Of a DNA stretch of 64,000 bases, positions 814 through 36,963 are shown in pieces. The stretch lies in the NCBI RefSeq assembly GCF_002954265.1, contig NZ_PPSL01000003.1, forward strand, positions 682,001 through 746,000. Direction: 5' to 3'. The notes under the pieces were generated by a model. The model was not told the origin of the DNA and did no database searches. It was given only the letters and a program-made list of their open reading frames with translations. The translations under genes and the position numbers were made by a program. Source of the DNA: Flavipsychrobacter stenotrophus. Lineage in GTDB: Bacteria > Bacteroidota > Bacteroidia > Chitinophagales > Chitinophagaceae. Position 1 is the first letter of the stretch, and every line of letters starts with the position of its first letter.

Positions 814-3800
814 ATGAAAGACGTATTTAAAGAGTTTAAGCCATCGAGCTGGGCTATTGATAATCGTACGGCTATTTATATAGTTACGATCCTCATTACC
901 CTGGCCGGACTTATGGCCTATCTTAGTTTGCCCAAGGAACAGTTTCCTGAAATTAAGATACCGAATATAATAGTACAAACAGTTTACCCTGGTACCTCTC
1001 CTGAGAACATGGAGAACCTGGTATCTAAGCCTATTGAAAAGCAGGTGAAGAACCTTACAGGTGTCAAGAAGGTAACCAGTACCTCATTCCAGGACTACTC
1101 TGTAGTAATAGTGGAATTTAACACTGACGTAAAGATCGATAAGGCCAAGCAGGATGTAAAGGACGGAGTAGACAAGGCAAAGCAAGACTTGCCTAAGAAC
1201 CTTCCTTATCAGCCTGAGGTAAAAGATATTGACCTTTCTGAACTGCCGATATTATCTGTGAATATCTCCGGTAACTATGACCTGAAGCGCCTGCGTAAGT
1301 ATGCAGATAAGGTGAAGGACAACATAGAGGCGATGAAGCAGATAAAGCAGGTGAATCGTGTTGGTGCACTTGACAGGGAAATACAGATCAATGTTGACAT
1401 GTTCAAGATGCAGGCCGCGGGTATCACGTTTGATGATATAGACCACGCCATAGCCGGTGAGAACGTATCTACTACTGCCGGTGAGGTGGGTATGAATAAC
1501 CAGAAGCGTGTATTGAGTATCAGGAATGAGTTCAAGTCGGCTGATGAGATCAATAATATTATTGTAAAGAACGGATCTGGTGGAAGTGTTTACCTACGCA
1601 ATATAGCACAGGTAGTAGACAGCTTTGCTGAGCAGAAGAGTTATGCGCGACTGGACAACAAAAATGTTATCACGCTGAACATTATCAAAGCAAAGGGTGC
1701 CAACCTTATTGAGGCAAGTGACAAGATACAGGAGTTGGTAACCAAGATGCAGAAGAGCGGTGACTTACCAAAGGACCTGACCATAGTAACTACAGGAGAT
1801 CAGTCTCAGACCACACGTAATACGTTGCACGATCTGATCAATACTATCATCATCGGTTTCTTGCTGGTGACTATTATCCTTATGTTCTTTATGGGCGTTA
1901 CCAATGCGTTGTTCGTAGCATTGTCTGTGCCTTTGTCTTGCGCCATTGCGTTCCTGGTGCTCCCTACAATCGGGTTCACGCTGAACATGATCGTGTTGTT
2001 CTCATTCCTGTTGGCACTGGGTATAGTGGTGGATGATGCCATTGTGGTAATTGAGAATACTCACCGTATTTTCGACAATGGTAAGATGAGTATAACCAAG
2101 GCTGCCAAGCTGGCTACAGGAGAGGTGTTCCTGCCAGTATTGTCGGGTACAGCTACAACGCTGATGCCGTTCATACCATTGGCATTCTGGAAGGGTGTTA
2201 TTGGTAGCTTCATGTTCTTCCTGCCTATTACCCTGATCATTACGCTGGTAGCATCATTGCTGGTGGCATATATCATCAACCCGGTATTCGCGGTATCATT
2301 CATGAAGCCTGAGAGCCATGAAGAGCACCATGCTAAGCGGAGGATAAGCCTGAGAGATAAGGTACTTGCAGTGATATTTATTGCTATCGCAGCTATCTTC
2401 TACCTGTCGGGCAATATATCTGTTGGTAACTTTGTAATGTTTATTTATGTTTTCATTTTAATGGAGAAGTTCATCTTCTCTAAATGGATCCATAGTTTCC
2501 AGAACAAGGCATGGCCTGCTTTCCGCGACTGGTATACAAGAGTATTGAAGATGGCACTAAGAAGGCCGGGAATGGTATTGGTAGTTACTTTGGTGCTTTT
2601 GCCATTATCTATATTCCTGTATGTACTGCGTAAGCCACCGTTTGTATTCTTTCCATCTGCACAGCCGAACTTTGCTTATGTATACCTGAATCTGCCGGTA
2701 GGAACTGACCAGGCATTTACCAATGAGGTAATGAGGAAGCTGGAAGCGAAGGTGAATACAGTATTGATAGATCCTAAGACAGGTAAGAGAACGGATATTG
2801 TTAAGTCTGTAATCTCTAACGTAACCGTGGATGCGGTTGACCCTAATGCAGGTGAGATCGGAGACTTCCCTAACAAGGGTAAAATATCTGTTGCCTTCGT
2901 TGACTTTGCAGAGCGTCATGGTATATCATCTGCCGACTACCTGGAAAGGATACGTAATGTGGTAAGGTCTTACCCTGGTGCTGAGATAACAGTGGATAAA
3001 GAAGGTGGCGGACCACCATTGCCTAAGCCCGTAGTAATTGAGATAACAGGTGAAAATCTGGATACTTTGGTAGCTACAGCTGAGCGCATGAAGCGCTATC
3101 TGAAAGCTAAGCAGGTGCCGGGTGTGGAAGAGTTGCGTAGTGACTTTGATGCGCACAAACCAGAGATAGTATTCGATGTGAACCGCGAGCATATGAATAA
3201 CGAGAGCATCTCTACCTATGCGGTAGCTATGAATCTGCGTACTGCCATATTTGGTAAGGAAGTATCGCGCTTCAGAGATGTGAATGATGATTATCCGATC
3301 AATCTCCGCCTCATACAATCACAGAGGAATAACATTGATGCGGTGAAGAATATGCCGATAGTGTTCCGTGATATGGGTATGGGAGGTATGATAAGATCGG
3401 TACCGGTAAGTGCATTTGCAGATATACACTATGGTAGCACTTATGGTGGTATCAAACGTAAGAACCAGAAGCGTATCATATCGCTGTCATCTAATGTGAT
3501 AGCAGGCTTTGACGAGAATGATGTAGTGGCAGCAGTGCAGCGCGAGATCAATGATTTCCACTACTCTTCATTGATCACAGTAAAGATGGGTGGACAGCAG
3601 GAAGAGCAGGCGGAAACAATGAGCTTCCTGGGTAATGCGATGTTGATATCTATGATGTTGATATTCCTTATCCTCATATTGCAGTTCAACTCGCTGAGCC
3701 GTACTGTTATTATTATGAGTGAAGTGTTGTTCAGTATCACGGGTGTGTTCCTGGGTTACGCGGCATTTGGCAATACCTTTAGTATGGTAATGAGTGGTAT

Positions 3801-4239
3801 CGGTATCATAGCATTGGCTGGTATAGTAGTGCGAAACGGTATCTTGCTGGTAGAGTTTATGGACATGATGCTGCATGAAGGCATGACACCATATGACGCT
3901 ATAGTAGAAGCAGGCCGTACACGTATGACGCCTGTATTGCTTACAGCTACAGCAGCTATACTGGGACTTGTGCCATTGGCCGTTGGTCTGAATATAGACT
4001 TCGGTACATTGTTGTCTGAATTTAACCCACATATCTTCTTTGGTGGTGATAGTGCTGAGTTTTGGAACTCACTGGCATGGACAATGATCTATGGTCTGTC
4101 TTTCGCAACAGTTCTGACGCTCATAGTTGTGCCATGTATGTGCTTGCTCAGCTTCCGCTTTAAGGATTGGGTAAAGAAAGTTTCCGGTAAGGCTGGTGCA
4201 GCATTAGCTGCCGATGATAAGCTGGATGAAGTAGCATAG
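814..4239 (+). CDS. RND efflux transporter permease (AcrB/MexB family)
   Basis: Proton-driven inner-membrane exporter, 1,141 residues, slightly longer than AcrB (1,049). TM1 lies near residues 18-37, the first porter region at about 45-330, a bundle of TM helices at 340-500, an extra hydrophobic stretch with a charged linker at about 505-560, the second periplasmic loop at 620-950 and the last TM bundle at 955-1120. The proton-relay pair of TM4 is present as D407-D408 in the context GIVVDDAIVVIENTHR. The additional insert and the PNAGEIGDFPNKGK loop are differences from classical multidrug pumps. It follows the adaptor gene by 44 bases and ends at a strong terminator. The family is certain; whether it exports drugs, lipids or siderophores is not. 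Confidence 0.95.
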   Translation: MKDVFKEFKPSSWAIDNRTAIYIVTILITLAGLMAYLSLPKEQFPEIKIPNIIVQTVYPGTSPENMENLVSKPIEKQVKNLTGVKKVTSTSFQDYSVVIVEFNTDVKIDKAKQDVKDGVDKAKQDLPKNLPYQPEVKDIDLSELPILSVNISGNYDLKRLRKYADKVKDNIEAMKQIKQVNRVGALDREIQINVDMFKMQAAGITFDDIDHAIAGENVSTTAGEVGMNNQKRVLSIRNEFKSADEINNIIVKNGSGGSVYLRNIAQVVDSFAEQKSYARLDNKNVITLNIIKAKGANLIEASDKIQELVTKMQKSGDLPKDLTIVTTGDQSQTTRNTLHDLINTIIIGFLLVTIILMFFMGVTNALFVALSVPLSCAIAFLVLPTIGFTLNMIVLFSFLLALGIVVDDAIVVIENTHRIFDNGKMSITKAAKLATGEVFLPVLSGTATTLMPFIPLAFWKGVIGSFMFFLPITLIITLVASLLVAYIINPVFAVSFMKPESHEEHHAKRRISLRDKVLAVIFIAIAAIFYLSGNISVGNFVMFIYVFILMEKFIFSKWIHSFQNKAWPAFRDWYTRVLKMALRRPGMVLVVTLVLLPLSIFLYVLRKPPFVFFPSAQPNFAYVYLNLPVGTDQAFTNEVMRKLEAKVNTVLIDPKTGKRTDIVKSVISNVTVDAVDPNAGEIGDFPNKGKISVAFVDFAERHGISSADYLERIRNVVRSYPGAEITVDKEGGGPPLPKPVVIEITGENLDTLVATAERMKRYLKAKQVPGVEELRSDFDAHKPEIVFDVNREHMNNESISTYAVAMNLRTAIFGKEVSRFRDVNDDYPINLRLIQSQRNNIDAVKNMPIVFRDMGMGGMIRSVPVSAFADIHYGSTYGGIKRKNQKRIISLSSNVIAGFDENDVVAAVQREINDFHYSSLITVKMGGQQEEQAETMSFLGNAMLISMMLIFLILILQFNSLSRTVIIMSEVLFSITGVFLGYAAFGNTFSMVMSGIGIIALAGIVVRNGILLVEFMDMMLHEGMTPYDAIVEAGRTRMTPVLLTATAAILGLVPLAVGLNIDFGTLLSEFNPHIFFGGDSAEFWNSLAWTMIYGLSFATVLTLIVVPCMCLLSFRFKDWVKKVSGKAGAALAADDKLDEVA

Positions 4240-4262
4240 TTTTAGAATAAATAGTAAGAGAA

Positions 4263-4291
4263 GGGTCGCGGTAATTCGCGGCCCTTTTTTT
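4263..4291 (+). terminator. Rho-independent terminator of the RND efflux operon
   Basis: An 8-bp GC-rich stem (GGGTCGCG / CGCGGCCC, one G-T pair) with a six-base loop is followed by a run of seven T. It lies 23 bases after the pump stop codon. Confidence 0.85.
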
Positions 4292-4295
4292 GTTT

Positions 4296-4303
4296 TAATT
4301 TTG
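4296..4303 (+). promoter_or_regulatory. Bacteroidota -7 promoter element (TAATTTTG)
   Basis: Exact match to TAnnTTTG, 40 bases upstream of the Crp/Fnr start and directly after the preceding terminator. No clear -33 TTTG was found at the usual spacing. Confidence 0.45.
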
Positions 4304-4343
4304 GACAGCGTCACCTAACTTTATTTAACTTAATAATTGTTTC

Positions 4344-4931
4344 ATGTCTACTCCCGAAAATACATTAAGAGCTCAGATAGAAAAGCTGGTGCCACTAAGT
4401 GATGCTGACTGGGACTTGCTTTTGCCACACCTTGAGCTGAGAATGGTGAAGAAGAACACACTATTTGCAGAAGAAGGTAAAATGGGTAAAGAGGTAGGCA
4501 TGATACTGGAGGGTTGCATGCGTCACTACTATACCAGAGATGGAGAAGAAAGATCTACCTATTTCTATTTCGAGAATGCATTGGTAGGGCCATACCTTAG
4601 TTGTATTACCGGGCAGCCATCGCAGATAAGTATTGATGCACTGGCCGATACGCAGCTTATCGTATTTCCGTATAAGCGGCTGGCAGAGCTGTTTGATGCT
4701 AACAAGACATGGGAACGATTTGGCCGTAAGCTGGCTGAATGGGCACTCATAGGTGTGGAGGAACGTATGGTGGGCTTGCTCACACTTAGTCCCGAGGAAA
4801 GGTACAATCAGCTATTGGCCGGTAATAAACAAAAGATCATAGAGCGAATACCGCAGCATTTGATTGCCAATTATCTGGGTATAACTCCTGTAAGTCTTAG
4901 TCGTATCAGAAATAGGATAACAAAAAAGTGA
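4344..4931 (+). CDS. Crp/Fnr family transcriptional regulator
   Basis: A 195-residue protein with an N-terminal cyclic-nucleotide-binding fold (about residues 25-120; LFAEEGKMGKEVGMILEGCM is the typical beta-roll start) and a C-terminal winged-helix region around residues 165-192 (HLIANYLGITPVSLSRIRNR). The HTH is short, as in the many Bacteroidota Crp/Fnr proteins that end soon after the recognition helix. No Fnr-type cysteine cluster is visible, so it is not an iron-sulfur oxygen sensor. It is followed on the same strand by the interrupted SRPBCC gene, which may be its target, but that is inference. Effector unknown. Confidence 0.9.
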   Translation: MSTPENTLRAQIEKLVPLSDADWDLLLPHLELRMVKKNTLFAEEGKMGKEVGMILEGCMRHYYTRDGEERSTYFYFENALVGPYLSCITGQPSQISIDALADTQLIVFPYKRLAELFDANKTWERFGRKLAEWALIGVEERMVGLLTLSPEERYNQLLAGNKQKIIERIPQHLIANYLGITPVSLSRIRNRITKK

Positions 4932-5020
4932 TCTGCCGTTTTCTTGTCTTTTGTTATCGTTTTGAGCCGGTGTGTTGACCGAATTTTGTGTCAACAAATC
5001 GCCCCTAAAAAACAAACAAA

Positions 5021-5500
5021 ATGAACAACAAGTCAAATGCCTACGGACAAGTAATTAAGAACAGTAAACAGCTCTACACAGAGATCACTATCAAGGCAGC
5101 ACCCGAAAAGGTATGGACAGTATTAACAGACTTTGCAGCCTATCCTTCGTGGAATCCTTTTGTCAAATCTATTATAGGAACACCCGTAGTTGGTAAGCCA
5201 ATTGAGGTGCTGTTGTAGCCGGAAGGATCGAAAGGGATGAAGATGCAGCCGGAAGTAATAAATTATGAAGCGAATAGGGAATTGCGCTGGATAGGTAAAC
5301 TATTTGCCTCACACATATTTGATGGTGAACATGCCTTTGTACTGCATGATAATGGCGACGGAACGACAACCTTTATGCAGTATGAACACTTCAGGGGGAT
5401 ACTGGTGCCCTTTCTTAAGAAGATGCTGGATGTGGATACAAAGGCTTCTTTTATGCAAATGAATGAAGCGTTGAAGAAGAGGGTAGAATCATCGAACTAA
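5021..5500 (+). pseudogene. SRPBCC domain protein interrupted by an in-frame TAG
   Basis: One frame encodes a complete SRPBCC/polyketide-cyclase-like protein of 159 codons if a single TAG at 5216-5218 is read through. The N-terminal half (ITIKAAPEKVWTVLTDFAAY, SWNPFVKSI) and the C-terminal half (MQPEVINYEANRELRWIGKL, HAFVLHDNGDGTTTFMQYEH) are both well conserved in type and lie in the same frame, so no indel is needed. The stop falls where relatives usually have a residue in a surface strand; CAG to TAG is the simplest change. Either it is a recent nonsense mutation, a sequencing error, or two fragments remain. These proteins bind small hydrophobic ligands; the role here is unknown. Confidence 0.8.
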
Positions 5501-6210
5501 TCTGTGCTCTTGTCGATCAGTCCTTCTGAGTCTTTATTGATATTTCTTCCTTTGCCGAATAGGAAGCCTGCAGAGATACCCCACATCTTGTTCTTACTTA
5601 CTTCTGATGGAATGAGGCTTATGTCTTTTACTCCCGATGTGTAATAGAGTTTGAAATAAAGCCCTGTGGGCATTTCATAACCTATAAAGAATGTGGCACC
5701 AATATCGAATTTGCGTAGTATCTGGTCGGGTGCAGTTTTGGTATATCTGGTAAATAGGGTGTCGTTGTAAGAGCCATGTGCGTTAAAGGTATTGCTGCCC
5801 CCCATAAGATAAGACATAGTTGCGCCCATGCCCAGTATTGCCCTGCCCTTGCCTTGTGAGCGGGTTTTGTAGACCATAGTCAGCGGCAGGTCTATATAGT
5901 TCAATACAAGCGATCTGCTCTCATAATCGTTAAGGCTGTCGCTTACATAAAATGAGTAATTGCGGTTCCCACCTTTGTGCGATATGGATAAGCCCGATTG
6001 GAAATAAATGTGCTTGCTGAAAGGCGCATCGATAACACCGCCAAACTTGTAAGAGAATATGCTCGATGTGCTGGACGATGTAAATGCACTATTGGGCACG
6101 AAGCGCACATTACTGCTACCCAGGCTTGCTTCCGGACCAAAGCCAAGTTGCGCATATGAAGAAGAGCAGATAAAAAGGCCGGCTATAAGTGCAAGTGTTT
6201 TCATACGCAT
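5497..6210 (-). CDS. Outer-membrane beta-barrel protein (PorT-like fold)
   Basis: Secreted protein of about 237 residues with a clear signal peptide (MRMKTLALIAGLFICSSSYA, cleavage before Q) followed by alternating strands typical of small Bacteroidota barrels (LGFGPEASLG, KFGGVIDAPF, IYFQSGLSISHKGG, IDLPLTMVYKT). ATG at 6210 is chosen because upstream codons in frame begin only with TTG at 6225. It ends in a convergent 4-bp overlap with the broken SRPBCC gene. It begins 16 bases after the aminotransferase stop, so both are probably co-transcribed. Function is not evident; the family includes PorT-type and adhesion barrels. Confidence 0.8.
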   Translation of the reverse strand: MRMKTLALIAGLFICSSSYAQLGFGPEASLGSSNVRFVPNSAFTSSSTSSIFSYKFGGVIDAPFSKHIYFQSGLSISHKGGNRNYSFYVSDSLNDYESRSLVLNYIDLPLTMVYKTRSQGKGRAILGMGATMSYLMGGSNTFNAHGSYNDTLFTRYTKTAPDQILRKFDIGATFFIGYEMPTGLYFKLYYTSGVKDISLIPSEVSKNKMWGISAGFLFGKGRNINKDSEGLIDKSTD

Positions 6211-6226
6211 GGTTTGAAGCGGCAAC

Positions 6227-7039
6227 TTAAAATAATTTATTCGTTAGCGACTTGGTAAACGTGTTAAAGTATTGTTTATTACCTACGCTGCCTATCCACC
6301 TTATCTTCCTTATGGCATTGGTAAGGAATACTTCATCAGCATGCATCAGTGTGTCGATGTTCAATGCCTGTTCCTTTACTGTTACAGAAGCCATCACATG
6401 CCTGCGCATTACACCTTCTATGCAGCCTTCTGATAATGGTGGTGTATAGATGATGCCTTCTTTTATCCAGAAGATGTTGGCGATCGTACTTTCTATGATG
6501 TTGCCGGCGGTATTGCATACTAGTGCATCATTCCATTTGTTGGCCTTAGCTTGTCTTGCGGCCATGGCATAAATGAGCGCATTACAAGATTTCAGATTGG
6601 CCAGGCTATCGGCGCTTTTATTCAATCCTTCAGCTATGCCCAGTGTTAGTCCATTTTCGTTAAACAAAATAGCCTCCTCGTTCAGCTCAAAACACTCTAT
6701 GATATATCCCGGTTTTGCTGCATCCTGTCCAAACATGCCCCCGCCACCGGCGTATACCTGTAGTCTTACCCTGCACAAATGTTCGAGGTTATTCTTTTTG
6801 ACTGTTTTAAGTACTTGCTCGGCAATGACTCCTGGTTTCATTAAAGAGGGTACGTCAAATGATAGCTGTTGCATGCCTGCAAACAACCGGTCCATATGAT
6901 ATTCCTGAAGCCTTATTGTGCCATTCTGCACCAGCAGCGTCTCAAACAACCCAAAGCCATACCTGAAAGCACCATTATCTACAGGAAGCATTGCTTTGTC
7001 TGAAGCCTGTATTCTACCATTTATGTTTACGTAATTCAA
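6227..7039 (-). CDS. Class IV aminotransferase, aminodeoxychorismate lyase-like
   Basis: PLP enzyme of fold type IV, about 270 residues. The start motif FRYGFGLFETLLVQNGTIRL, the YAMAARQAKANKWNDALVCN segment carrying the PLP lysine, and GNIIESTIANIFWIKEG are characteristic of the PabC/BCAT/D-amino-acid transaminase family. No ATG lies before residue 20 of the conserved region; TTG at 7039-7037 gives (M)NYVNINGRI, the usual family start, so TTG initiation is proposed, with another TTG at 7081 as alternative. Aminodeoxychorismate lyase (4-aminobenzoate synthesis) is the likeliest role and would fit the PabA-type amidotransferase at 60.7 kb, but branched-chain aminotransferase activity cannot be excluded. 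It is divergent from the lpxD-like gene. Confidence 0.8.
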   Translation of the reverse strand: MNYVNINGRIQASDKAMLPVDNGAFRYGFGLFETLLVQNGTIRLQEYHMDRLFAGMQQLSFDVPSLMKPGVIAEQVLKTVKKNNLEHLCRVRLQVYAGGGGMFGQDAAKPGYIIECFELNEEAILFNENGLTLGIAEGLNKSADSLANLKSCNALIYAMAARQAKANKWNDALVCNTAGNIIESTIANIFWIKEGIIYTPPLSEGCIEGVMRRHVMASVTVKEQALNIDTLMHADEVFLTNAIRKIRWIGSVGNKQYFNTFTKSLTNKLF

Positions 7040-7114
7040 TAGCTGATTGATTAATACCCCGAAATTAGTTGAAAGAAACAATACACTTAGCTAAAACGTG
7101 CAGAGGCAAATTTG

Positions 7115-7122
7115 TATTTTTG
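7115..7122 (+). promoter_or_regulatory. Bacteroidota -7 promoter element (TATTTTTG)
   Basis: Exact TAnnTTTG match ending 16 bases before the ATG of the LpxD-like gene, in the short divergent gap with the aminotransferase. Confidence 0.45.
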
Positions 7123-7138
7123 CGCAAACTTTTTCCGA

Positions 7139-8086
7139 ATGCAGTTTGAACAAGCGATTCCCGTGCAGTGGCTGGCCGAATTTATTGGTGCCGAATTGAG
7201 AGGTGATACAGAACAATTGGCCACCGGTATCAACGAGATCCACATGGTCACTCCGGGTGATATTTCTTTTGTTGATTTTGAAAAGTACTATGATAAATGC
7301 CTTAATTCGGCAGCTACCATTATCATCATCAACAAAGATGTGGAGTGCCCTGCAGGAAAGACCTTGTTGGTTTGCAAAGATCCATTCGATGCCTACATCA
7401 AAATAGTAAAGCGTTTCCGTCCGTTTGAGCCTGCTACTAAAATGATCAGTGACAGTGCTGTGATAGGCGAGGGTACACACATACAGCCGGGTGTATTTGT
7501 AGGTAATCACGTACGCATAGGCAAAGACTGTTTGATACACCCCAATGTGACCATCTACGATCACACCATCATTGGCGACAATGTGGTGATACACTCGGGT
7601 ACGGTAATAGGTGCGGATGCATTTTATTTTAAGCGTTACAAGGCGCGCGATACCCAATATGAGAAGATGGTAAGCTGCGGTAGGGTAGTGCTGGAAGATG
7701 ATGTGGAAATAGGCGCCTGCTGTACAGTAGATCGTGGCGTAAGCGGAGATACGGTCATCGGCAAGGGTACCAAGTTGGATAATCATATACAGGTAGGGCA
7801 TGATACAGTAGTGGGCAAAAATTGCCTGTTTGCATCGCAGGTAGGTGTGGCAGGTGTGGCGCATATAGAAGATGAGGTGATACTTTGGGGGCAAGTGGGC
7901 GTGAATAAGGACCTGACCATAGGCAAGGGAGCAATTATTTTGGCGCAGTCGGGTGTTCCTTCTAGTGTTGATGGAGGAAAAGTGTATTTTGGTTCTCCGG
8001 TAGAAGAAGCAAAGACAAAGATGAAGGAGTTGGCATGGATTAAACGCCTTCCCGAGATCTGGCAAAAGCTGAACAACACTAAATAA
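7139..8086 (+). CDS. LpxD-like UDP-3-O-acylglucosamine N-acyltransferase
   Basis: Left-handed beta-helix acyltransferase of 315 residues. An N-terminal uridine-binding domain (about 1-100) is followed by hexapeptide repeats (VIGEGTHIQPGVFVGNHVRI onward), the segment DNHIQVGHDTVVGKNC with the catalytic-type histidine, and a C-terminal helix (PEIWQKLN). This family adds the N-linked acyl chain in lipid A synthesis. The true start is ATG at 7139; the frame opens from a TTG at 7112. The cysteine-rich stretch GACCTVDRGV and the absence of lpxC, fabZ or lpxA neighbours suggest a second, stand-alone LpxD paralogue, which many Bacteroidota carry. Acyl-chain specificity is unknown. Confidence 0.88.
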   Translation: MQFEQAIPVQWLAEFIGAELRGDTEQLATGINEIHMVTPGDISFVDFEKYYDKCLNSAATIIIINKDVECPAGKTLLVCKDPFDAYIKIVKRFRPFEPATKMISDSAVIGEGTHIQPGVFVGNHVRIGKDCLIHPNVTIYDHTIIGDNVVIHSGTVIGADAFYFKRYKARDTQYEKMVSCGRVVLEDDVEIGACCTVDRGVSGDTVIGKGTKLDNHIQVGHDTVVGKNCLFASQVGVAGVAHIEDEVILWGQVGVNKDLTIGKGAIILAQSGVPSSVDGGKVYFGSPVEEAKTKMKELAWIKRLPEIWQKLNNTK

Positions 8087-11498: not shown

Positions 11499-12671
11499 AT
11501 GCAAAAACAAATAATCGGCATCATAGGTTCAGGGGCTATGGGTGCGGGCATAGGGCAGGTAGCTGCTATGGCTGGCCATAGCGTTGTGGTCTATGACAAT
11601 AACAAGGCATCGCTCGATAAGGCTAAAACAAGCCTGGCTGCTACATTACAGAAGCTGGAAGAAAAAGGTAAGATCACCTCAGCTGCTGATGTGCTGCATA
11701 GGCTCATATTTGTAGACGATATCCACGCCTTTGCTACTTGCGAGCTTATTATAGAAGCTATTGTAGAAAAGCTGGAAGTAAAGAAAGCTGTCTTTGCCGA
11801 AGTGGAAAAAGTAGTAAGTGATACCTGCATACTGGCCAGTAACACGTCTTCATTGTCAATTACGTCTATAGCCGCAGCATGTACTAATCCATCCAGGGTT
11901 ATGGGGCTGCATTTCTTCAACCCTGCGCCGTTAATGGCCCTGGTAGAGGTAATACCGGCTATACAAACTGATCCTGAGTTGGTGACCATGGCTGCAGGCT
12001 TGATGAAAGAATGGGGTAAGGTAGCTGTACTGGCAAAAGACACCCCCGGCTTTATAGTTAACCGTGTAGCGCGCCCATTCTACGGCGAGGCTATCCGTAT
12101 CTATGAAGAGCGTATTGCCGATATGGCAACTATCGATTGGGCTATGACCGAAATAGGTGGTTTTAAAATGGGGCCATTCACATTAATGGACTACATAGGC
12201 CATGATGTCAACTATGTGGTTACAGAAACTGTATTCCAGTCGTTCTTCTACGATCCGCGTTATAAACCCTCATTTTCACAAAAGCGTTTGCTCGAAGCCG
12301 GTTGGCTGGGCCGCAAAAGTGGACGTGGCTTTTACAACTATGCCGCAGGAGTTACAATGCCCGAGCCAAATAAGGATCAGGTATTATGTAAAAAAATATT
12401 TGACCGTATTCTGGCCATGCTGATCAACGAGGCCGTTGATGCGTTGCACCTGAATGTAGCATCTGCTGCCGACCTGGAAACCGCTATGACAAAGGGTGTT
12501 AACTACCCTAAAGGCTTGCTGCAGTGGGCCGACGAGTGGGGAGCAGCCAATTGTCTGGCTCAATTAGACGCACTTTATAACGACTACCACGAGGACAGAT
12601 ATAGGGCAAGTGTGCTGTTGAGAAAACATGTATTTGCAAATGAGAAATTAATTTCTAATTTTACGAAATGA
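11499..12671 (+). CDS. 3-hydroxyacyl-CoA dehydrogenase (PaaH/FadB-like)
   Basis: NAD-dependent dehydrogenase of 390 residues. The Rossmann motif GIIGSGAMGAGIGQVAAMAG is at the N-terminus, followed by LASNTSSLSITSIAAAC and MGLHFFNPAPLMALVEVI (with the catalytic histidine), KDTPGFIVNRVARPFYGEAI, and a duplicated C-terminal 3HCDH domain ending TKGVNYPKGLLQWADEWGA. The duplicated C-terminal domain is typical of PaaH-type enzymes of phenylacetate and fatty acid degradation, and other phenylacetate genes lie in the window. Its stop overlaps the next start by four bases (ATGA), implying translational coupling with a beta-barrel gene, an odd partner. Confidence 0.9.
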   Translation: MQKQIIGIIGSGAMGAGIGQVAAMAGHSVVVYDNNKASLDKAKTSLAATLQKLEEKGKITSAADVLHRLIFVDDIHAFATCELIIEAIVEKLEVKKAVFAEVEKVVSDTCILASNTSSLSITSIAAACTNPSRVMGLHFFNPAPLMALVEVIPAIQTDPELVTMAAGLMKEWGKVAVLAKDTPGFIVNRVARPFYGEAIRIYEERIADMATIDWAMTEIGGFKMGPFTLMDYIGHDVNYVVTETVFQSFFYDPRYKPSFSQKRLLEAGWLGRKSGRGFYNYAAGVTMPEPNKDQVLCKKIFDRILAMLINEAVDALHLNVASAADLETAMTKGVNYPKGLLQWADEWGAANCLAQLDALYNDYHEDRYRASVLLRKHVFANEKLISNFTK

Positions 12672-13357
12672 AGAATATTTTACTAATTGCCCTTTTTCTG
12701 GGTCTTTCGACATATTCCTTTGCTCAAAACAGGATCGGTTTAGAGTTTGGTGCATCGGGTTGCACATTCTCCGGACGTTCTGATAACCAGACGATTGGAT
12801 CGACACAGTCGGTTATTATCAAGCCTAATGTGGCCTTGTCTTACATGCGTAAATTAGACCGCCATGTATACCTTGGTGTTAAGCTGGGTTTGGAAGCCAA
12901 TTCCTTCTTTTACAGCAAAACCAATGGTACTAAGGTGCAGATAGACCACAACAGTTCTTATTTTACTGTTGCGCCAACAGTAGATTTCGGTTTGGGCCGC
13001 TATCAGTATATGCACATCTTCGTGGCTATGAACATGGGCTTCCTTACCAATGGCAACCAGACTACCAGCGAGTACATCAATGCTGCGGCATCTGTGCCAT
13101 ACACTACTTACAATTCAGCTTCTACTATCAGCAGCTTTATATTCCGTCCGGGTTTTGGTTTGAAGCAGCATTTTCCTATCAGCAGAATGTGGCATGTAAC
13201 TATGTCTGAAGCATTCTACTATATGGCTACAGACCTTACGCATCTGGGTAATACCAACGATGAAGCGATCCATCCGGGTTATTTCAGTCTGCAAATGGGT
13301 ATCATGCGTAAATTCCACAGACCAAAACATCACCTTGCGGTTAAAACAGGAGAGTAA
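12668..13357 (+). CDS. Outer-membrane beta-barrel protein, paralogue 1 of 3
   Basis: A 229-residue secreted protein with signal peptide MKNILLIALFLGLSTYSFA and mature start QNRIGLEFGASG. Strands with alternating aromatic residues run to a C-terminal FSLQMGIMRKF. It closely resembles the protein at 14263 (shared NRIGLE, HFAP/FTVAPT-DxGxG, GFGLKQHFP, HPGY motifs), so they are paralogues. The start overlaps the dehydrogenase stop by four bases. Function unknown; the fold suggests a small porin- or OmpW/OmpA-like barrel. Confidence 0.85.
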   Translation: MKNILLIALFLGLSTYSFAQNRIGLEFGASGCTFSGRSDNQTIGSTQSVIIKPNVALSYMRKLDRHVYLGVKLGLEANSFFYSKTNGTKVQIDHNSSYFTVAPTVDFGLGRYQYMHIFVAMNMGFLTNGNQTTSEYINAAASVPYTTYNSASTISSFIFRPGFGLKQHFPISRMWHVTMSEAFYYMATDLTHLGNTNDEAIHPGYFSLQMGIMRKFHRPKHHLAVKTGE

Positions 13358-13376
13358 CTATACTCAATAATATTGT

Positions 13377-13403
13377 AAAGCCTGCTGAAAAGCAGGCTTT
13401 TTT
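13377..13403 (+). terminator. Rho-independent terminator after the first beta-barrel gene
   Basis: A perfect 10-bp stem (AAAGCCTGCT / AGCAGGCTTT) with a GAAA tetraloop and continuing T run. Confidence 0.9.
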
Positions 13404-13410
13404 AGTGCCC

Positions 13411-13456
13411 TGATGCCAGTTTTGACAACTTTTCAACGTTGTCAAAACTGGCATCA
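13411..13456. repeat. Perfect 19-bp inverted repeat with 8-bp loop, family G copy 1
   Basis: Arms 13411-13429 and 13438-13456 are exact reverse complements; the core reads TTTTGACAAC / GTTGTCAAAA and the loop is TTTTCAAC. It lies directly after a terminator. Related palindromes with the same loop length lie at 36600-36633 and 52413-52436. Confidence 0.9.
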
Positions 13457-13535
13457 ACAAGCGTAGATTTTGCCACCGGCAAATTAAATGCGAACAAAGT
13501 ATACATTAAAATCAAAATTTTATTAATTTTCAGTC

Positions 13536-14189
13536 ATGAAACGAATATCACTTATTACGCTATTCACGCTCCTGAGTTTTACAGGATTTTCCGCTACGTT
13601 TTTCCAGATATGGGGTGGTGCCGGTATAGCCACTAAGCATAACTATGATGCCGGTATATCGGCGGGAATGAGCTTTTTTAAAGGATTTCCTTATCGGGTT
13701 AATGTTGGCGCTTCTATTTTCCTACAGCAGTATAATCTTTACTACGATAGAGAGAACAGCCAGCTGGTAGGCGGGAGCATCAGGCACAACAGTACTTATG
13801 CGTTTGTCTCGCCAGTCATAGATCTGCGCATTGGTAAATACGGTAATACGCATTTTTATCTTACCGCTGGTCCCGGCTTTAATATGAATGCAGTTGACAC
13901 ACTCCACAAGTGGGACCGTCAGGGGGCAGTTACTTATGATAGCACTATAGGCAAGCCGGAGAATATTAATAAAATGGTAGTTCGGTTAGGTATGGGGCTT
14001 AGCGAATATTTCCCTATCAGTCAGAAATTATACATGAATATTACCGAAGATGTAGGCTTTCTTGCCAACAAACTCAGTGAGACCAACGACCCGTCAGACG
14101 CCAAGATCAACAACAATGTAGGCCAGATATTCAGGCCAACTTACATTTCTATAAGGATAGGGTTTGGGTGGAAGTTTGCTAAAAAGTAG
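13536..14189 (+). CDS. Outer-membrane beta-barrel protein, divergent member of the trio
   Basis: A 217-residue secreted protein with signal peptide MKRISLITLFTLLSFTGFSA. The mature part has amphipathic strands (GGAGIATKHNYDAGISAGMS, VNVGASIFLQQYNLYYD, DLRIGKYGNTHFYLTAGPGF) and ends with the aromatic strand ISIRIGFGWKF, typical for outer-membrane insertion. It shares the general plan (tyrosine-rich loop, GMGLSEYFPIS resembling GFGLKQHFPIS) with the flanking paralogues but is more diverged. It stands alone between a terminator/palindrome and a 73-base gap. Function unknown. Confidence 0.8.
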   Translation: MKRISLITLFTLLSFTGFSATFFQIWGGAGIATKHNYDAGISAGMSFFKGFPYRVNVGASIFLQQYNLYYDRENSQLVGGSIRHNSTYAFVSPVIDLRIGKYGNTHFYLTAGPGFNMNAVDTLHKWDRQGAVTYDSTIGKPENINKMVVRLGMGLSEYFPISQKLYMNITEDVGFLANKLSETNDPSDAKINNNVGQIFRPTYISIRIGFGWKFAKK

Positions 14190-14262
14190 CCATTACCCCC
14201 GAAACTCAAATAATTCTTCAGTTTTTCTCGCTTACAAATGAAAATTTGCTTATTTTTCGCCC

Positions 14263-14985
14263 ATGAAATGTAAAATACTTACACTACTATTATTGGTTTG
14301 TGCTGGTTATTCCTTTGCTCAAAACAGGATAGGGCTTGAGTTGGGAGCCGGAAGACCTACTTTCAGCAATGGTGCTAATTCATCTGTTGCAGTGCCTGAA
14401 TACAATGTGCGATATACACTTACAGGCGATTTTTACTACCTCCGCAGGGTAGCTCACCATTGGTACCTAGGTGCTAATGCAGGCTTTGAGCAATATTCTT
14501 TTGAGTATGAAAAGAGAGTGCCTGATGCTACTAACAGTGGTGTTGTAGGTACTAATGTGATACACAAAAGTTCTTATGTGCATTTCGCACCTACTATAGA
14601 TCTTGGCGTGGGTAAGTTTCGCGAATACCTTCACTTCTATGCATTTGCTTCAATAGGCTTTAAGGTATCTGGCGATCAGACTACACGCGAGTATCATACT
14701 TCATCATTTACCGGTGGTATCTTACCACTGTATGATTCTACTTATGCCAGCGGTTACAGGGTTAATCCTGTTGCCTTACGTTTCGGATTTGGTCTGAAGC
14801 AGCACTTCCCGTTGACAAAAACATGGCAGGCTACTATCAATGAAGGTTTCAGTTTTATGCCTGCAGGCGATCTGAGCCAGCCCGATGCTACTGCCGGTGC
14901 TAATTTCCATCCTGGTTACCTTACACTTACTTTTGGTGTAATGCACAAGTTCAAAGACACTTACAGAAGAGAACGTGATAAATAA
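14263..14985 (+). CDS. Outer-membrane beta-barrel protein, paralogue 3 of 3
   Basis: A 240-residue secreted barrel, clear paralogue of the product at 12668. It has signal peptide MKCKILTLLLLVCAGYSFA and then QNRIGLELGAGRPTFS; later VHFAPTIDLGVGKFREYLHF, RFGFGLKQHFPLTKTW and NFHPGYLTLTFGVMHKF line up with the other copy. The duplication with a diverged relative between suggests an old local tandem duplication. A near-match promoter (TATTTTTC) lies just before the start. Function unknown. Confidence 0.85.
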   Translation: MKCKILTLLLLVCAGYSFAQNRIGLELGAGRPTFSNGANSSVAVPEYNVRYTLTGDFYYLRRVAHHWYLGANAGFEQYSFEYEKRVPDATNSGVVGTNVIHKSSYVHFAPTIDLGVGKFREYLHFYAFASIGFKVSGDQTTREYHTSSFTGGILPLYDSTYASGYRVNPVALRFGFGLKQHFPLTKTWQATINEGFSFMPAGDLSQPDATAGANFHPGYLTLTFGVMHKFKDTYRRERDK

Positions 14986-15007: not shown

Positions 15008-15041
15008 ATACCCTGCATTATTTATGCAGGGTATTTTTTTT
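15008..15041 (+). terminator. Rho-independent terminator after the third beta-barrel gene
   Basis: A perfect 11-bp stem (ATACCCTGCAT / ATGCAGGGTAT) with a 5-base loop and seven to eight T. Confidence 0.9.
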
Positions 15042-15110: not shown

Positions 15111-15869
15111 ATGGAATTGCCAAAAGGTAAAAAGGTATATTTCGCCTCCGATTTTCATTTGGGGATTCCCGATCGTGCTACCAGCATAGAGCGTGAAAAG
15201 CGCTTGTGCAACTGGCTCGACGAGATAGAAGCCGATGCCCATATCCTATACCTTGTGGGCGATATATTCGACACCTGGTTCGAATACAGGCATGTGGTGC
15301 CCAAGGGCTTTACCCGTTTCCTCGGTAAGCTGGCCGCACTGAGTGATAAGGGTTTACAGATAGAAGTATTTACCGGTAATCATGACCTGTGGATGCAGGG
15401 CTATTTTGAGGAAGAAATGAAGGTGCCGGTACATTACGGACCTATAGTGAGAGAGTTTAACGGTAAGCGCTTCTTCATAGGTCATGGCGATGGCCTTGGC
15501 CCCGGAGATCATGGCTACAAGATCCTCAAAAAAGTAATGAGCAATAATTTCTCGCAGTGGCTCTACCGCAGGCTCCACCCCGATACTGGTGTGGGTATGG
15601 CAGGATGGCTGAGCAGGCTGGGACCCAAACACGCAGATACGCCGGAAGTGAAATTCCTGGGCGAAGAGGAGTGGCTGGTGCAGTTTGCCAGAGAAGAACT
15701 AAAGAACGAACCTATTGATTATTTTATATTCGGGCACAGGCATATTGCAATAGAATATCCCTTGACTGATAAAAGTATGTATGTTAACCTTGGAGACTGG
15801 ATACGGTACGATAGTTATGCCGTGTTTAATGGAGAACAACTGAATTTAAAATTTTATAAGGCCAGGTAA
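15111..15869 (+). CDS. lpxH: UDP-2,3-diacylglucosamine hydrolase-like metallophosphatase (LpxH family)
   Basis: A 252-residue calcineurin-like phosphoesterase. All metal-binding motifs are in order: SDFHLG (near residue 14), GDIFDTW, FTGNHDLW, GHGDGLGPGD and FGHRHIAIE. LpxH removes UMP from UDP-2,3-diacylglucosamine in lipid A synthesis at the inner membrane; Bacteroidota relatives of this length are the usual LpxH candidates. It is the first gene of a tight operon: one base separates it from the SixA-like gene, which in turn overlaps the kinase/RapZ fusion. The symbol rests on family resemblance, not on a test. Confidence 0.82.
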   Translation: MELPKGKKVYFASDFHLGIPDRATSIEREKRLCNWLDEIEADAHILYLVGDIFDTWFEYRHVVPKGFTRFLGKLAALSDKGLQIEVFTGNHDLWMQGYFEEEMKVPVHYGPIVREFNGKRFFIGHGDGLGPGDHGYKILKKVMSNNFSQWLYRRLHPDTGVGMAGWLSRLGPKHADTPEVKFLGEEEWLVQFAREELKNEPIDYFIFGHRHIAIEYPLTDKSMYVNLGDWIRYDSYAVFNGEQLNLKFYKAR

Positions 15870-15870
15870 T

Positions 15871-16371
15871 ATGCAACGCACTTTAGTGATGATCAGGCAT
15901 GCCAAATCGAGCTGGGCAAATCCGCTGCAAAGCGATTTCGACCGTCCGCTTAACGAGAGAGGCAAAAGAGAGGCGCCGGAAATGGCGGAAAAGTTGAAAG
16001 AGGCAGGTATTATGCCCGATCTTATTATTTGCAGTACGGCCAAGAGAACACGGCAGACTGCCAAGAGAATATCGGAGGTGTTGGGCTACGATCTGGCCAA
16101 TATCCGCTGGGAAGAAAAGTTGTATCATTGCATACCTTCTGTTTTTGAAGAGTTGCTGTATGAGGTTAGTGATAAGGTGAAGACCGTGTTTATCATTGCG
16201 CACAACCCCGGAATAACAGAGTTCGTTAACCAACTGTCGCCCGATTTCAGCACAGACAATATGCCACCATGCGGCATGGTAGCCACAAGGTTCAAAGCCG
16301 AAGAATGGAACAGGTTTCCATTAGCAGAAAGAAAAGTAATTTTATTTGAATACCCTGAAAAGAAAGCATGA
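15871..16371 (+). CDS. Phosphohistidine phosphatase SixA-like protein
   Basis: A 166-residue member of the histidine phosphatase (phosphoglycerate mutase-like) superfamily. The catalytic RHA motif is in MIRHAKSSWANPLQSDFDRP, followed by LNERGKREAPEMAEKLKEAG, STAKRTRQTAKRISEVL, and the second catalytic histidine in FIIAHNPGITEFVNQL. SixA removes phosphate from phosphohistidine of phosphorelay or PTS proteins; many Bacteroidota copies are uncharacterised. It sits between the LpxH-like gene (1-base gap) and the kinase/RapZ fusion (4-base ATGA overlap), so it is made together with both. Confidence 0.92.
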   Translation: MQRTLVMIRHAKSSWANPLQSDFDRPLNERGKREAPEMAEKLKEAGIMPDLIICSTAKRTRQTAKRISEVLGYDLANIRWEEKLYHCIPSVFEELLYEVSDKVKTVFIIAHNPGITEFVNQLSPDFSTDNMPPCGMVATRFKAEEWNRFPLAERKVILFEYPEKKA

Positions 16372-17849
16372 CACCCACTAAAACTATAGTACAGATATCT
16401 TCTATATTAGAAAAGCTTTTTGAAGAGCATTTTGAAAAAAAGGTAGAGGAGATGGAAGCCCTTGCCGTTTCAGGCTCAGACAGGCGCTACTACCGCATTT
16501 CAGGCGGTGGGTCGGTGGCAATAGGCACGTACAATGCCAATGTAGCCGAGAACAACACCTTTTTCTATATTACCGAGTTATTCCGCAAGCATAAAGTAAA
16601 TGTTCCCGAGGTTTATAAGATCAACAAAGACAGGCGCGCCTACCTGCAGCAGGATCTGGGCAAGACCTCTTTGTTCGACCTGGTAATAAAGGATGGCTTT
16701 ACCGATAAGAACCGTAAGCTGTATCATGCTGCCATGGCTCAGTTGGCCAAGGCCCAATGGATAGCAGGTCGCGAAGCTGATTTCAAACAGTGTTTCGCAT
16801 CTAAGCAGTTTGATGAGAAGGCGATCATGTCCGATCTGCTTTACTTCAAATACTACTTTGCCGATCTGCAGAATATCCAATACGACCGTTCATTGCTCAT
16901 AAGCGAAATGGAATTGCTGAGTAAAGACCTGGGTCGTGTACAGCCGCAAACATTAATGTATCGCGACTTCCAGAGCCGCAACATAATGGTGTATGAAGGC
17001 AAGATCTACTTTATCGACTACCAGGGCTTTATGCAGGGCCCGCCGCAGTACGATATTGCATCCCTCCTTTGGCAGGCACGAGCACAGCTGCCTGCTGCCT
17101 GGAAGGAAGATCTGCTGAATGGCTACATCAGCACCCTAAATGAATTGCATGTACCTCGTATGGATGAGATTTACTTCCGCAGGGGCTATGTGCAGTTTGT
17201 GTTGGTAAGATTGCTGCAGGTATTGGGTGCTTATGGCTTCCGTGGCTTGTTGCAGCACAAGGCGCACTTCATTAACAGCATAGGTCCGGCATTGAAGAAT
17301 CTCGAAATATTCCTTGCAGATCATCCTCAGACACCGGCATACCCAGAATTAAGATCATTGCTGGAAAAAATGTCTGCACCCGATATGCAGGACAAATATG
17401 CGACTACCCGTGGCAGTGAGCAATCAAAGCTCACCATACAGGTGTCCAGCTTCTCTTATAAAAATGGCATACCTAAGTCTGCCGGTCAGCATGGCGGTGG
17501 TTATGTGTTCGATTGTCGGGGTATCCTTAATCCGGGCAGATATGCTACCTATAAGCACCTGACTGGTAATGATGAAATGGTACGCCAGTTCCTGGAGCGC
17601 GAAACACGTATGCCCGACTTTATGAACCATGCCAATGCATTGGTAGCCATTAATGTAGAGGATTATATGGCGCGTGGTTTTGAGCACCTGGATATTGCAT
17701 TTGGTTGCACAGGTGGTCAGCATAGGTCGGTATATGCCGCTAACCAGATGGCGGAATATCTGCGCTCACGTTACAATCTTGAGGTTACAGTAAGCCATCT
17801 CAATGAAAAGAAGTGGGTATTGCCTGATGCGGCCAAGACCGAAGAATAG
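16368..17849 (+). CDS. Amino-sugar kinase-like (AmgK/APH) domain fused to RapZ C-terminal domain
   Basis: A 493-residue two-domain protein. Residues about 20-345 form an aminoglycoside-phosphotransferase-like kinase: SGSDRRYYRISGGGSVAIGT (nucleotide loop), catalytic D200 in MYRDFQSRNIMV, metal-binding D217 in FIDYQGFMQGPPQYDIASLL. This pattern is closest to AmgK, the kinase of the MurNAc/GlcNAc cell-wall recycling route. From residue 354 on it matches the C-terminal half of RapZ, with HGGGYVFDCRGILNPGRY and the signature GCTGGQHRSVY (446-456), the part that in Enterobacteria senses glucosamine-6-phosphate and binds small RNA. The N-terminal RapZ P-loop domain is replaced by the kinase. A MurU-type nucleotidyltransferase is not adjacent. 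Confidence 0.88.
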   Translation: MTPTKTIVQISSILEKLFEEHFEKKVEEMEALAVSGSDRRYYRISGGGSVAIGTYNANVAENNTFFYITELFRKHKVNVPEVYKINKDRRAYLQQDLGKTSLFDLVIKDGFTDKNRKLYHAAMAQLAKAQWIAGREADFKQCFASKQFDEKAIMSDLLYFKYYFADLQNIQYDRSLLISEMELLSKDLGRVQPQTLMYRDFQSRNIMVYEGKIYFIDYQGFMQGPPQYDIASLLWQARAQLPAAWKEDLLNGYISTLNELHVPRMDEIYFRRGYVQFVLVRLLQVLGAYGFRGLLQHKAHFINSIGPALKNLEIFLADHPQTPAYPELRSLLEKMSAPDMQDKYATTRGSEQSKLTIQVSSFSYKNGIPKSAGQHGGGYVFDCRGILNPGRYATYKHLTGNDEMVRQFLERETRMPDFMNHANALVAINVEDYMARGFEHLDIAFGCTGGQHRSVYAANQMAEYLRSRYNLEVTVSHLNEKKWVLPDAAKTEE

Positions 17850-29652: not shown

Positions 29653-29740
29653 TATTGCGCCCCTGCAGGGCTTGACGATCTTTATTTTCCAGACCGGGGG
29701 CTTCACCCCCGGCTGTTATATTACGCCCCTTCAGGGCTTA
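29653..29740. repeat. Three-hairpin composite repeat, family A copy 1
   Basis: Order: hairpin GCCCCTGCAGGGC, then ACCGGGGGCTTCACCCCCGG, then CGCCCCTTCAGGGCTT. The central and right parts are nearly identical to copy 2 at 36875-36963. Confidence 0.85.
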
Positions 29741-36874: not shown

Positions 36875-36963
36875 TGTTTCGCCCCTTCAGGGCTTTGTTT
36901 TTTGTACCATATTTAACCGGGGGCTTCACCCCCGGCTGTTATATTTTGCCCCTTCAGGGCTTG
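36875..36963. repeat. Three-hairpin composite repeat, family A copy 2
   Basis: CGCCCCTTCAGGGCTT, then ACCGGGGGCTTCACCCCCGG, then TGCCCCTTCAGGGCTT; nearly identical to copy 1. Confidence 0.85.

Follow-up and report, generated by a model that had tools for sequence, protein, structure and literature searches.

Here we describe a protein of Flavipsychrobacter stenotrophus in which a kinase resembling AmgK, the anomeric kinase of N-acetylmuramic acid (MurNAc) and N-acetylglucosamine (GlcNAc) known from Pseudomonas, is fused to the C-terminal domain of RapZ (RapZ_C), and from which the N-terminal P-loop domain of RapZ is absent. Its gene lies in a stretch of 64,000 nucleotides of contig NZ_PPSL01000003.1 (positions 682,001 to 746,000), the whole of which was analysed and is hereafter called the window. 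Both domains belong to known families; it is their combination, and its tie to AmgK and to the uridylyltransferase MurU, that appears to be new. In a sample of 395 genomes of the Bacteroidota, RapZ_C never occurs without an AmgK-like kinase and a MurU-like gene, and we are confident that the window protein, and RapZ_C with it, belong to the AmgK-MurU route of MurNAc salvage.

From the architecture, co-occurrence, gene order and residue conservation set out below we infer a mechanism that takes in the sugar substrate, the kinase activity and a hydrolytic step. The kinase half would place a phosphate on C1 of MurNAc, and perhaps of GlcNAc, and from the resulting MurNAc 1-phosphate (MurNAc-1P) the MurU-like enzyme, whose gene lies elsewhere in the genome, would make uridine diphosphate (UDP)-MurNAc. 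RapZ_C would be a dedicated third component of this route and not an RNA regulator: the pocket at its CX5R loop would bind a sugar 6-phosphate such as MurNAc 6-phosphate (MurNAc-6P) and hydrolyse it to MurNAc, feeding the attached kinase, which is the job of MupP in Pseudomonas. The explanation as a whole, in which RapZ_C stands in for MupP as a cysteine-based enzyme at the AmgK step of MurNAc salvage, is tentative, its chances falling a little short of even, and hydrolysis, although the single most likely action of RapZ_C, is a supposition that we would place somewhat below an even chance.

Architecture and distribution of the fusion

Pfam finds two domains in the window protein, an aminoglycoside phosphotransferase (APH)-type kinase domain (PF01636, 48.4 bits against a cut-off of 23.2) and RapZ_C (PF22740, 110.9 bits against 27), and only these two, so that it carries no haloacid dehalogenase (HAD) domain and does not belong with MupP. 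Among the NCBIfam kinase models AmgK is the best, in agreement with an earlier note that had read the kinase as AmgK-like from the letters of this stretch. The resemblance to Pseudomonas AmgK extends to the APH fold and, in relatives, to a MurU-like neighbour; unlike that enzyme, the window protein has an additional RapZ_C, and the AmgK equivalog cut-offs are not reached (60.4 of 550 bits for NF045759 and 32.8 of 500 bits for NF045698). The model of full-length RapZ (NF003828) also stays below its cut-off (101.3 of 244 bits), aligning over its positions 148-275 only. The P-loop domain (PF03668), which the same note had seen to be replaced, was found in none of 69 genomes, these being the 49 that hold RapZ_C in the census described below, the window's own included, and 20 that do not.

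In a phmmer search of the Protein Data Bank (PDB) the C-terminal half leads to Escherichia coli RapZ and the N-terminal half to 3csv, by its name an aminoglycoside phosphotransferase, which is also the top Foldseek match in the PDB for the model of the whole protein (template modelling (TM) score 0.79 by target, 19% identity). That model, made with AlphaFold2 from a 42-sequence alignment, has a mean predicted local distance difference test (pLDDT) score of 89.2 and a predicted TM score of 0.75; its weak spot lies between the domains, at residues 348-350, and the helices predicted on the kinase side run on past the Pfam span to about residue 343. Modelled alone, the RapZ_C domain reaches a pLDDT of 92.7 and matches the C-terminal domain (CTD) of E. 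coli RapZ (5o5s) with a Z score of 19.7 and a root-mean-square deviation (rmsd) of 1.7 over 123 aligned residues. D200 and D217, which had been proposed as catalytic and which we take, by analogy with APH kinases, to be the catalytic base and a metal ligand, are invariant in an alignment of the window protein with 29 of the 48 other census genomes (30/30 rows) and in a second alignment of 42 rows (42/42). The GCTGGQHRSV signature, noted earlier as intact, holds up equally well, C447-T-G-G-Q-H-R-S454 being invariant in both.

The phylogenetic profile that the earlier note had called for comes from a census of 395 sampled genomes of the phylum, which were searched for RapZ_C. The domain is present in 49 of them, in a single copy each; these span 12 family labels, and since the census genomes are kin their counts are not independent. 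In 37 genomes it is part of a fusion (open frame of 476-524 amino acids (aa)) and in the other 12 it is a separate gene (134-169 aa). The recurrence of the fusion in 37 of the 395 genomes, and in named records besides, means that it is not a product of chance. A second set consisted of the best 80 of 591 relatives among named contigs, all 80 of which hold RapZ_C; the two sets overlap, since locus L148 is very likely genome G012.

The separate genes take several positions. At L020 (genome G031) and L077 (genome G012) RapZ_C stands between an AmgK-like kinase and a MurU-like gene on the same strand, while in G180, G271 and G306 the three lie apart, yet all are encoded. On the RapZ_C tree the fused and the separate state change into one another three times; well-supported branches require two of these changes, and support for the deep branches is weak. 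At L020 (472-1896) a stop followed by a restart in the same frame separates the kinase from RapZ_C, and G124 (L019), which bears the same genus label, has them fused; the split is either a recent fission or a sequencing error. The fusion also turns up on contigs of metagenome-assembled genomes (MAGs) labelled Candidatus Delongbacteria (L126) and Calditrichia (L137), where mis-binning is possible, and L108 (labelled Williamsia) and L115 (labelled Comamonas) are probably mis-binned, to judge from the label alone. A literature search in open-licence papers, mostly in their titles and abstracts, found no fusion of RapZ with AmgK; Pfam or InterPro may list the domain combination.

Partnership with AmgK-like kinases and MurU

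All 395 genomes were searched for AmgK-like kinases (E value at most 1e-10) and for MurU-like genes (E value at most 1e-20), and 20 of the 346 RapZ_C-negative genomes served as controls for both, as well as for PF03668, AnmK, NamZ and MurQ. All 49 RapZ_C genomes have both the kinase and the MurU-like gene, and none of the 20 controls has either; the earlier note was right to suggest a link to amino-sugar metabolism. Of the 48 census loci other than the window, 38 have MurU downstream on the same strand, no more than 600 bases away, and so have 51 of the best 80 named-contig loci; in the remaining 29 of these it does not adjoin, in two of them for want of sequence. Sixteen of the 89 adjacent RapZ_C-MurU pairs of both sets overlap by four bases when the closest in-frame ATG is taken, by rule, as the start of MurU. 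G391 and G306 give only a partial MurU match, and that of G271 contains one stop.

In the window's own genome the MurU-like gene lies on another contig (L080), so that the partner is invisible from the window; it is 46% identical to the protein of L077. With the MurU model NF045761 it scores 138.5 of 250 bits, the best in its list although below the cut-off. MurU is the best NCBIfam model for all three nucleotidyltransferases tested from RapZ_C genomes (138-147 bits), just as AmgK is for both separate kinases tested. According to a preprint, AmgK and MurU of Tannerella forsythia function together on MurNAc probes in E. coli (PMC13041923), and their use in E. coli is reported elsewhere too (PMC7670621); a MAG of Tannerella sp. 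(L159), not T. forsythia itself, has the fusion with MurU adjoining. It is the partnership with MurU, taken with the published use of the T. forsythia enzymes, that points to MurNAc as the substrate of the kinase.

The kinase might instead act on some other sugar or a small alcohol, the nucleotidyltransferase making some other nucleoside diphosphate sugar and RapZ_C being tied to that route. The APH fold is broad, the curated cut-offs of AmgK and MurU are not reached, the MurU-like proteins also match models of other sugar-1-phosphate nucleotidyltransferases, and NamZ does not discriminate, occurring in 47 of the 49 RapZ_C genomes and in 19 of the 20 negatives. Against this stand the best models, AmgK for the window protein and the two separate kinases and MurU for the three nucleotidyltransferases, together with the MurNAc probes handled by the T. 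forsythia pair and the fusion beside MurU in Tannerella sp., and we regard a different substrate as unlikely.

The kinase occurs in 134 of the 395 genomes, namely the 49 with RapZ_C, 84 of family f18, and G009; the f18 kinases are divergent (E values 7e-29 to 2e-11), and that of G009 has an E value of 3.6e-51. MurU-like genes were found in 131 genomes, five of which (G038, G100, G227, G231 and G377) have neither kinase nor RapZ_C. The gene order of pairs lacking RapZ_C was read at L165 (G063, of f18) and L167 (G009), the other f18 genomes being represented by their search rows only. Each of the two loci holds a kinase-MurU pair, and at L165 the pair is followed by a NamZ muramidase and a sodium symporter, which points to MurNAc. 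The L165 segment (2798-7351), with its kinase, a MurU bearing a hexapeptide (LbH) tail, a NamZ exo-muramidase and a sodium:solute symporter, is a candidate for a compact MurNAc salvage cluster without RapZ_C. The neighbours in four further loci, in which ten proteins were scanned, pointed to no common pathway.

The RapZ_C pocket and its possible action

In E. coli RapZ the pocket is reported to consist of H190, T248, G249, H252 and R253, with C247 beside them, and to hold sulfate or malonate (PMC5737377). In the cryo-electron microscopy structure, as described, these residues also meet the RNA backbone; seven basic residues contact RNA (K170, R184, K194, R196, R211, R238 and K251), and the variants H190A, G249W, R253A, C247A, C247S and K170A lose activity (PMC9841335). 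We aligned E. coli RapZ with all 49 census domains; the window RapZ_C is 37% identical to the E. coli domain. Kept in 49 of 49 are C247, T248, G249, G250, H252, R253 and S254, so that the CTGGxHRS pocket is shared along with the fold, and likewise D182, R184, N188 and P189. Unlike E. coli RapZ, the window RapZ_C has five residues inserted before the second strand; H190 is replaced by Gly in all 49 genomes, followed by Arg or Lys in place of W191 in 48. K251 is Gln in 48 and Arg in one, and the E. coli-type combination of pocket His190 and Lys251 does not occur. K194 is basic in 9 of 49 and R211 in 6, R238 is aromatic in all, and K270 is basic in none, the alignment being loose at that place; the C-terminal basic residues 281-283 are covered in only three of the 49 rows, the domain ranges stopping short of them in the others. 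The phosphate loop is thus kept without exception, whereas one pocket residue and roughly half of the surface that contacts RNA have changed. Of the sugar-phosphate-binding residues whose loss the earlier note had thought telling, H190 is gone, whereas T248, G249, H252 and R253, with C247, remain.

The note had further pointed to the control of GlmS by this domain through RNA in Enterobacteria, and RapZ_C could indeed be an RNA-binding regulator that controls glmS or other mRNAs through small RNAs (sRNAs). It shares the E. coli fold at 37% sequence identity, the pocket residues it has kept are among those that meet RNA in the published structure (PMC9841335), and part of the basic surface persists: position 170 is Lys or Arg in 47 of 49, R184 is kept in all, position 196 is Lys or Arg in 44, and an Arg has been gained at position 236 in 45. 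The survival of three of the seven basic contacts lowers our confidence, but the loss of H190 and the replacement of the other four (K194, R211, R238 and K251), with K270 as an uncertain addition, favour a sugar-phosphate role over sRNA control. The missing N-terminal domain is described as a tetramer interface of the E. coli protein (PMC5737377), and Rfam finds neither GlmY nor GlmZ in the window. RapZ_C is thus in all likelihood not an sRNA presenter of the GlmZ kind, and an RNA regulator of the E. coli type is quite improbable.

For a role as phosphatase there is, to begin with, the loop itself. In all 49 RapZ_C domains a CX5R[ST] loop follows a strand and precedes a helix (strand 87-94, loop 94-101 and helix 100-116 of the domain model), as the C-X5-R-S loop does in the protein tyrosine phosphatases (PTP) and dual-specificity phosphatases (DUSP). 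The likeness of the RapZ-CTD pocket to the PTP loop, and with it the hydrolysis of glucosamine 6-phosphate (GlcN6P) by E. coli RapZ, have already been proposed in print (PMC7199280); what is added here is the fusion to a kinase and the placement in the AmgK-MurU route. There is also the recycling context. Pseudomonas MupP is reported to dephosphorylate the MurNAc-6P made by AnmK (PMC5371407, PMC5371409), and E. coli lacking murQ is reported to build up MurNAc-6P (PMC5371407). The genome of the window (98.85% complete) has AnmK and no full-length match to MurQ, so that MurNAc-6P made by AnmK needs another exit, and 16 of the 49 RapZ_C genomes, this one among them, are of that kind. Another 16 have both AnmK and MurQ (in G216 as a fragment at the edge of a contig), four have MurQ only and 13 have neither, where MurQ was called from a match with an E value below 1e-88 (40 genomes, 20 of them controls, with two scoring slightly below the curated cut-off) and weaker matches were taken as other SIS-domain proteins. 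With the Pseudomonas series AnmK-MupP-AmgK-MurU the RapZ_C genomes share the pair of kinase and uridylyltransferase, and RapZ_C is placed at the MupP step by role only, MupP being described as a HAD-like phosphatase (PMC5371407) to which RapZ_C, with its CX5R loop, is unrelated. If RapZ_C is a phosphatase, the changes of H190 to Gly and of W191 to Arg or Lys would provide the space and the charge to accommodate the lactyl group of MurNAc.

Along with the basic residues retained on the RNA-contact surface, a number of observations weigh against this proposal. The curated NCBIfam cut-offs are reached by neither the AmgK-like nor the MurU-like proteins, and 85 of the 346 RapZ_C-negative genomes (84 of f18 and G009) have the kinase without RapZ_C, which is thus not obligatory for the route. 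After RapZ, the fold comes closest to a phosphofructokinase subdomain, and DUSP18 appears only at rank 45 with a Z score at noise level (5.0; rmsd 4.3, 92 residues aligned). Phosphatase activity has been shown for no RapZ_C, and no general acid was identified. AnmK is rarer, not commoner, where RapZ_C is present (32 of 49 genomes against 20 of 20 negatives), whereas a tie to MurNAc-6P would predict the opposite, and this argues against a simple MupP role; the full-length MurQ match is rarer as well (20 of 49 against 20 of 20). Nor do the 13 genomes lacking both AnmK and MurQ have an evident source of MurNAc-6P. Eleven of the 13 contain a BadF-type kinase frame of 296-331 aa, and sugar 6-kinases can belong to the BadF family; the BadF comparison drew on 8 of the 20 control negatives, and the NamZ, MurQ and BadF sets also held G009 and three f18 genomes.

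Several of these points are better explained if RapZ_C is purely a sensor, which would bind GlcN6P, MurNAc-6P or MurNAc-1P and tune the kinase or MurU allosterically, without catalysis. The RapZ-CTD of E. coli is reported to bind GlcN6P (PMC9841335, PMC7199280), the pocket is largely intact, and a domain that the kinases of f18 and G009 do without, and that is kept in genomes without an evident source of MurNAc-6P, fits regulation. On the other hand, a cysteine that is invariant in 49 of 49 domains would be unexpected for mere phosphate binding, and in G180, G271 and G306, where RapZ_C is unlinked, direct allostery would need a complex. We consider such a sensor possible, nearly as likely as hydrolysis, since it accounts better for the absence from f18 and for the class without AnmK and MurQ; the direct coupling of phosphorylation to sensing that had been suggested for the fusion is likewise possible. 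It is very improbable that RapZ_C does no more than help the kinase to dimerise or keep it stable, as this would leave unexplained both the invariance of the CX5R loop and the occurrence of RapZ_C as an unlinked gene in genomes that also have AmgK and MurU.

Returning to hydrolysis, a broader conjecture can be attached to it, namely that RapZ_C is a cysteine-dependent sugar-6-phosphate phosphatase, ancestral in amino-sugar metabolism, which performs the MupP step in the Bacteroidota and whose pocket was later put to use for RNA control in E. coli; this we regard as doubtful.

Neighbouring genes and wider meaning

Two phosphatase-like genes stand directly upstream of the fusion on the same strand, as the earlier note had observed, and the three are tightly packed, with a 15869/15871 junction between the first two (Table 1).

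Table 1. Positions in the window of the fusion gene, its domains and residues, and the features upstream
Feature	Position	Strand	Remarks
AmgK-like kinase / RapZ C-terminal domain fusion	16368..17849	+	493 aa, ATG start
APH/AmgK-type kinase domain, residues 36-255	16473..17132	+	PF01636 span
D200, predicted catalytic base, motif R-D-F-Q-S-R-N	16965..16967	+	
D217, predicted metal ligand, motif I-D-Y-Q	17016..17018	+	
RapZ C-terminal domain, residues 355-478	17430..17801	+	PF22740
N388-P-G-R391, with Gly where E. coli has H190 and Arg where it has W191	17529..17540	+	
C447-T-G-G-Q-H-R-S454 phosphate-binding loop (CX5RS)	17706..17729	+	
LpxH-like metallophosphoesterase, first gene of the local cluster	15111..15869	+	PF00149; LpxH model 71.9 of 134 bits
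SixA-like histidine phosphatase, 4-base overlap with the fusion (16368-16371)	15871..16371	+	PF00300; SixA model 56.2 of 74.5 bits
Hairpin resembling a terminator, upstream of the three genes	15008..15034	+	11-pair stem, then seven T; consensus match only

Both upstream proteins stay below their NCBIfam cut-offs, and the possible link to lipid A and phosphohistidine signalling that had been suggested from them finds no support across the family. Only one of the 48 other census loci (L068) has these neighbours; among the best 80 named-contig loci, SixA is upstream in nine (L084-L092) and LpxH in eight (the same without L085). The window protein has its nine closest matches at these loci (47-80% identity), and MurU adjoins in none of them. 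We have therefore rejected LpxH and SixA as partners throughout the family, their presence being limited to a few closest loci, and read the arrangement as a local, lineage-specific rearrangement.

Elsewhere in the window, RF01687 (Acido-Lenti-1 RNA) matches at 29694-29738 and 36917-36961 on the forward strand, with 41.3 and 38.1 bits against a gathering threshold of 37. Three consecutive small, exported-looking genes occupy 12668-14985 on the same strand; the first and the third look like paralogues, with SFAQNRIGLE near the N-terminus, and the third matches an outer-membrane beta-barrel family (PF13568).

For the Bacteroidota, where the AmgK-MurU route had been observed in Tannerella forsythia (PMC13046382, 2026), the fusion and its relatives bring in RapZ_C as a third component of this salvage. 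The action of the RapZ pocket on GlcN6P has been raised as a question in print (PMC7199280, PMC9841335), and a RapZ_C joined to a sugar kinase whose chemistry is probably known, and free of the N-terminal domain of RapZ, makes this question directly testable. In part of the Bacteroidota, RapZ_C most likely deals with a sugar phosphate and not with RNA.

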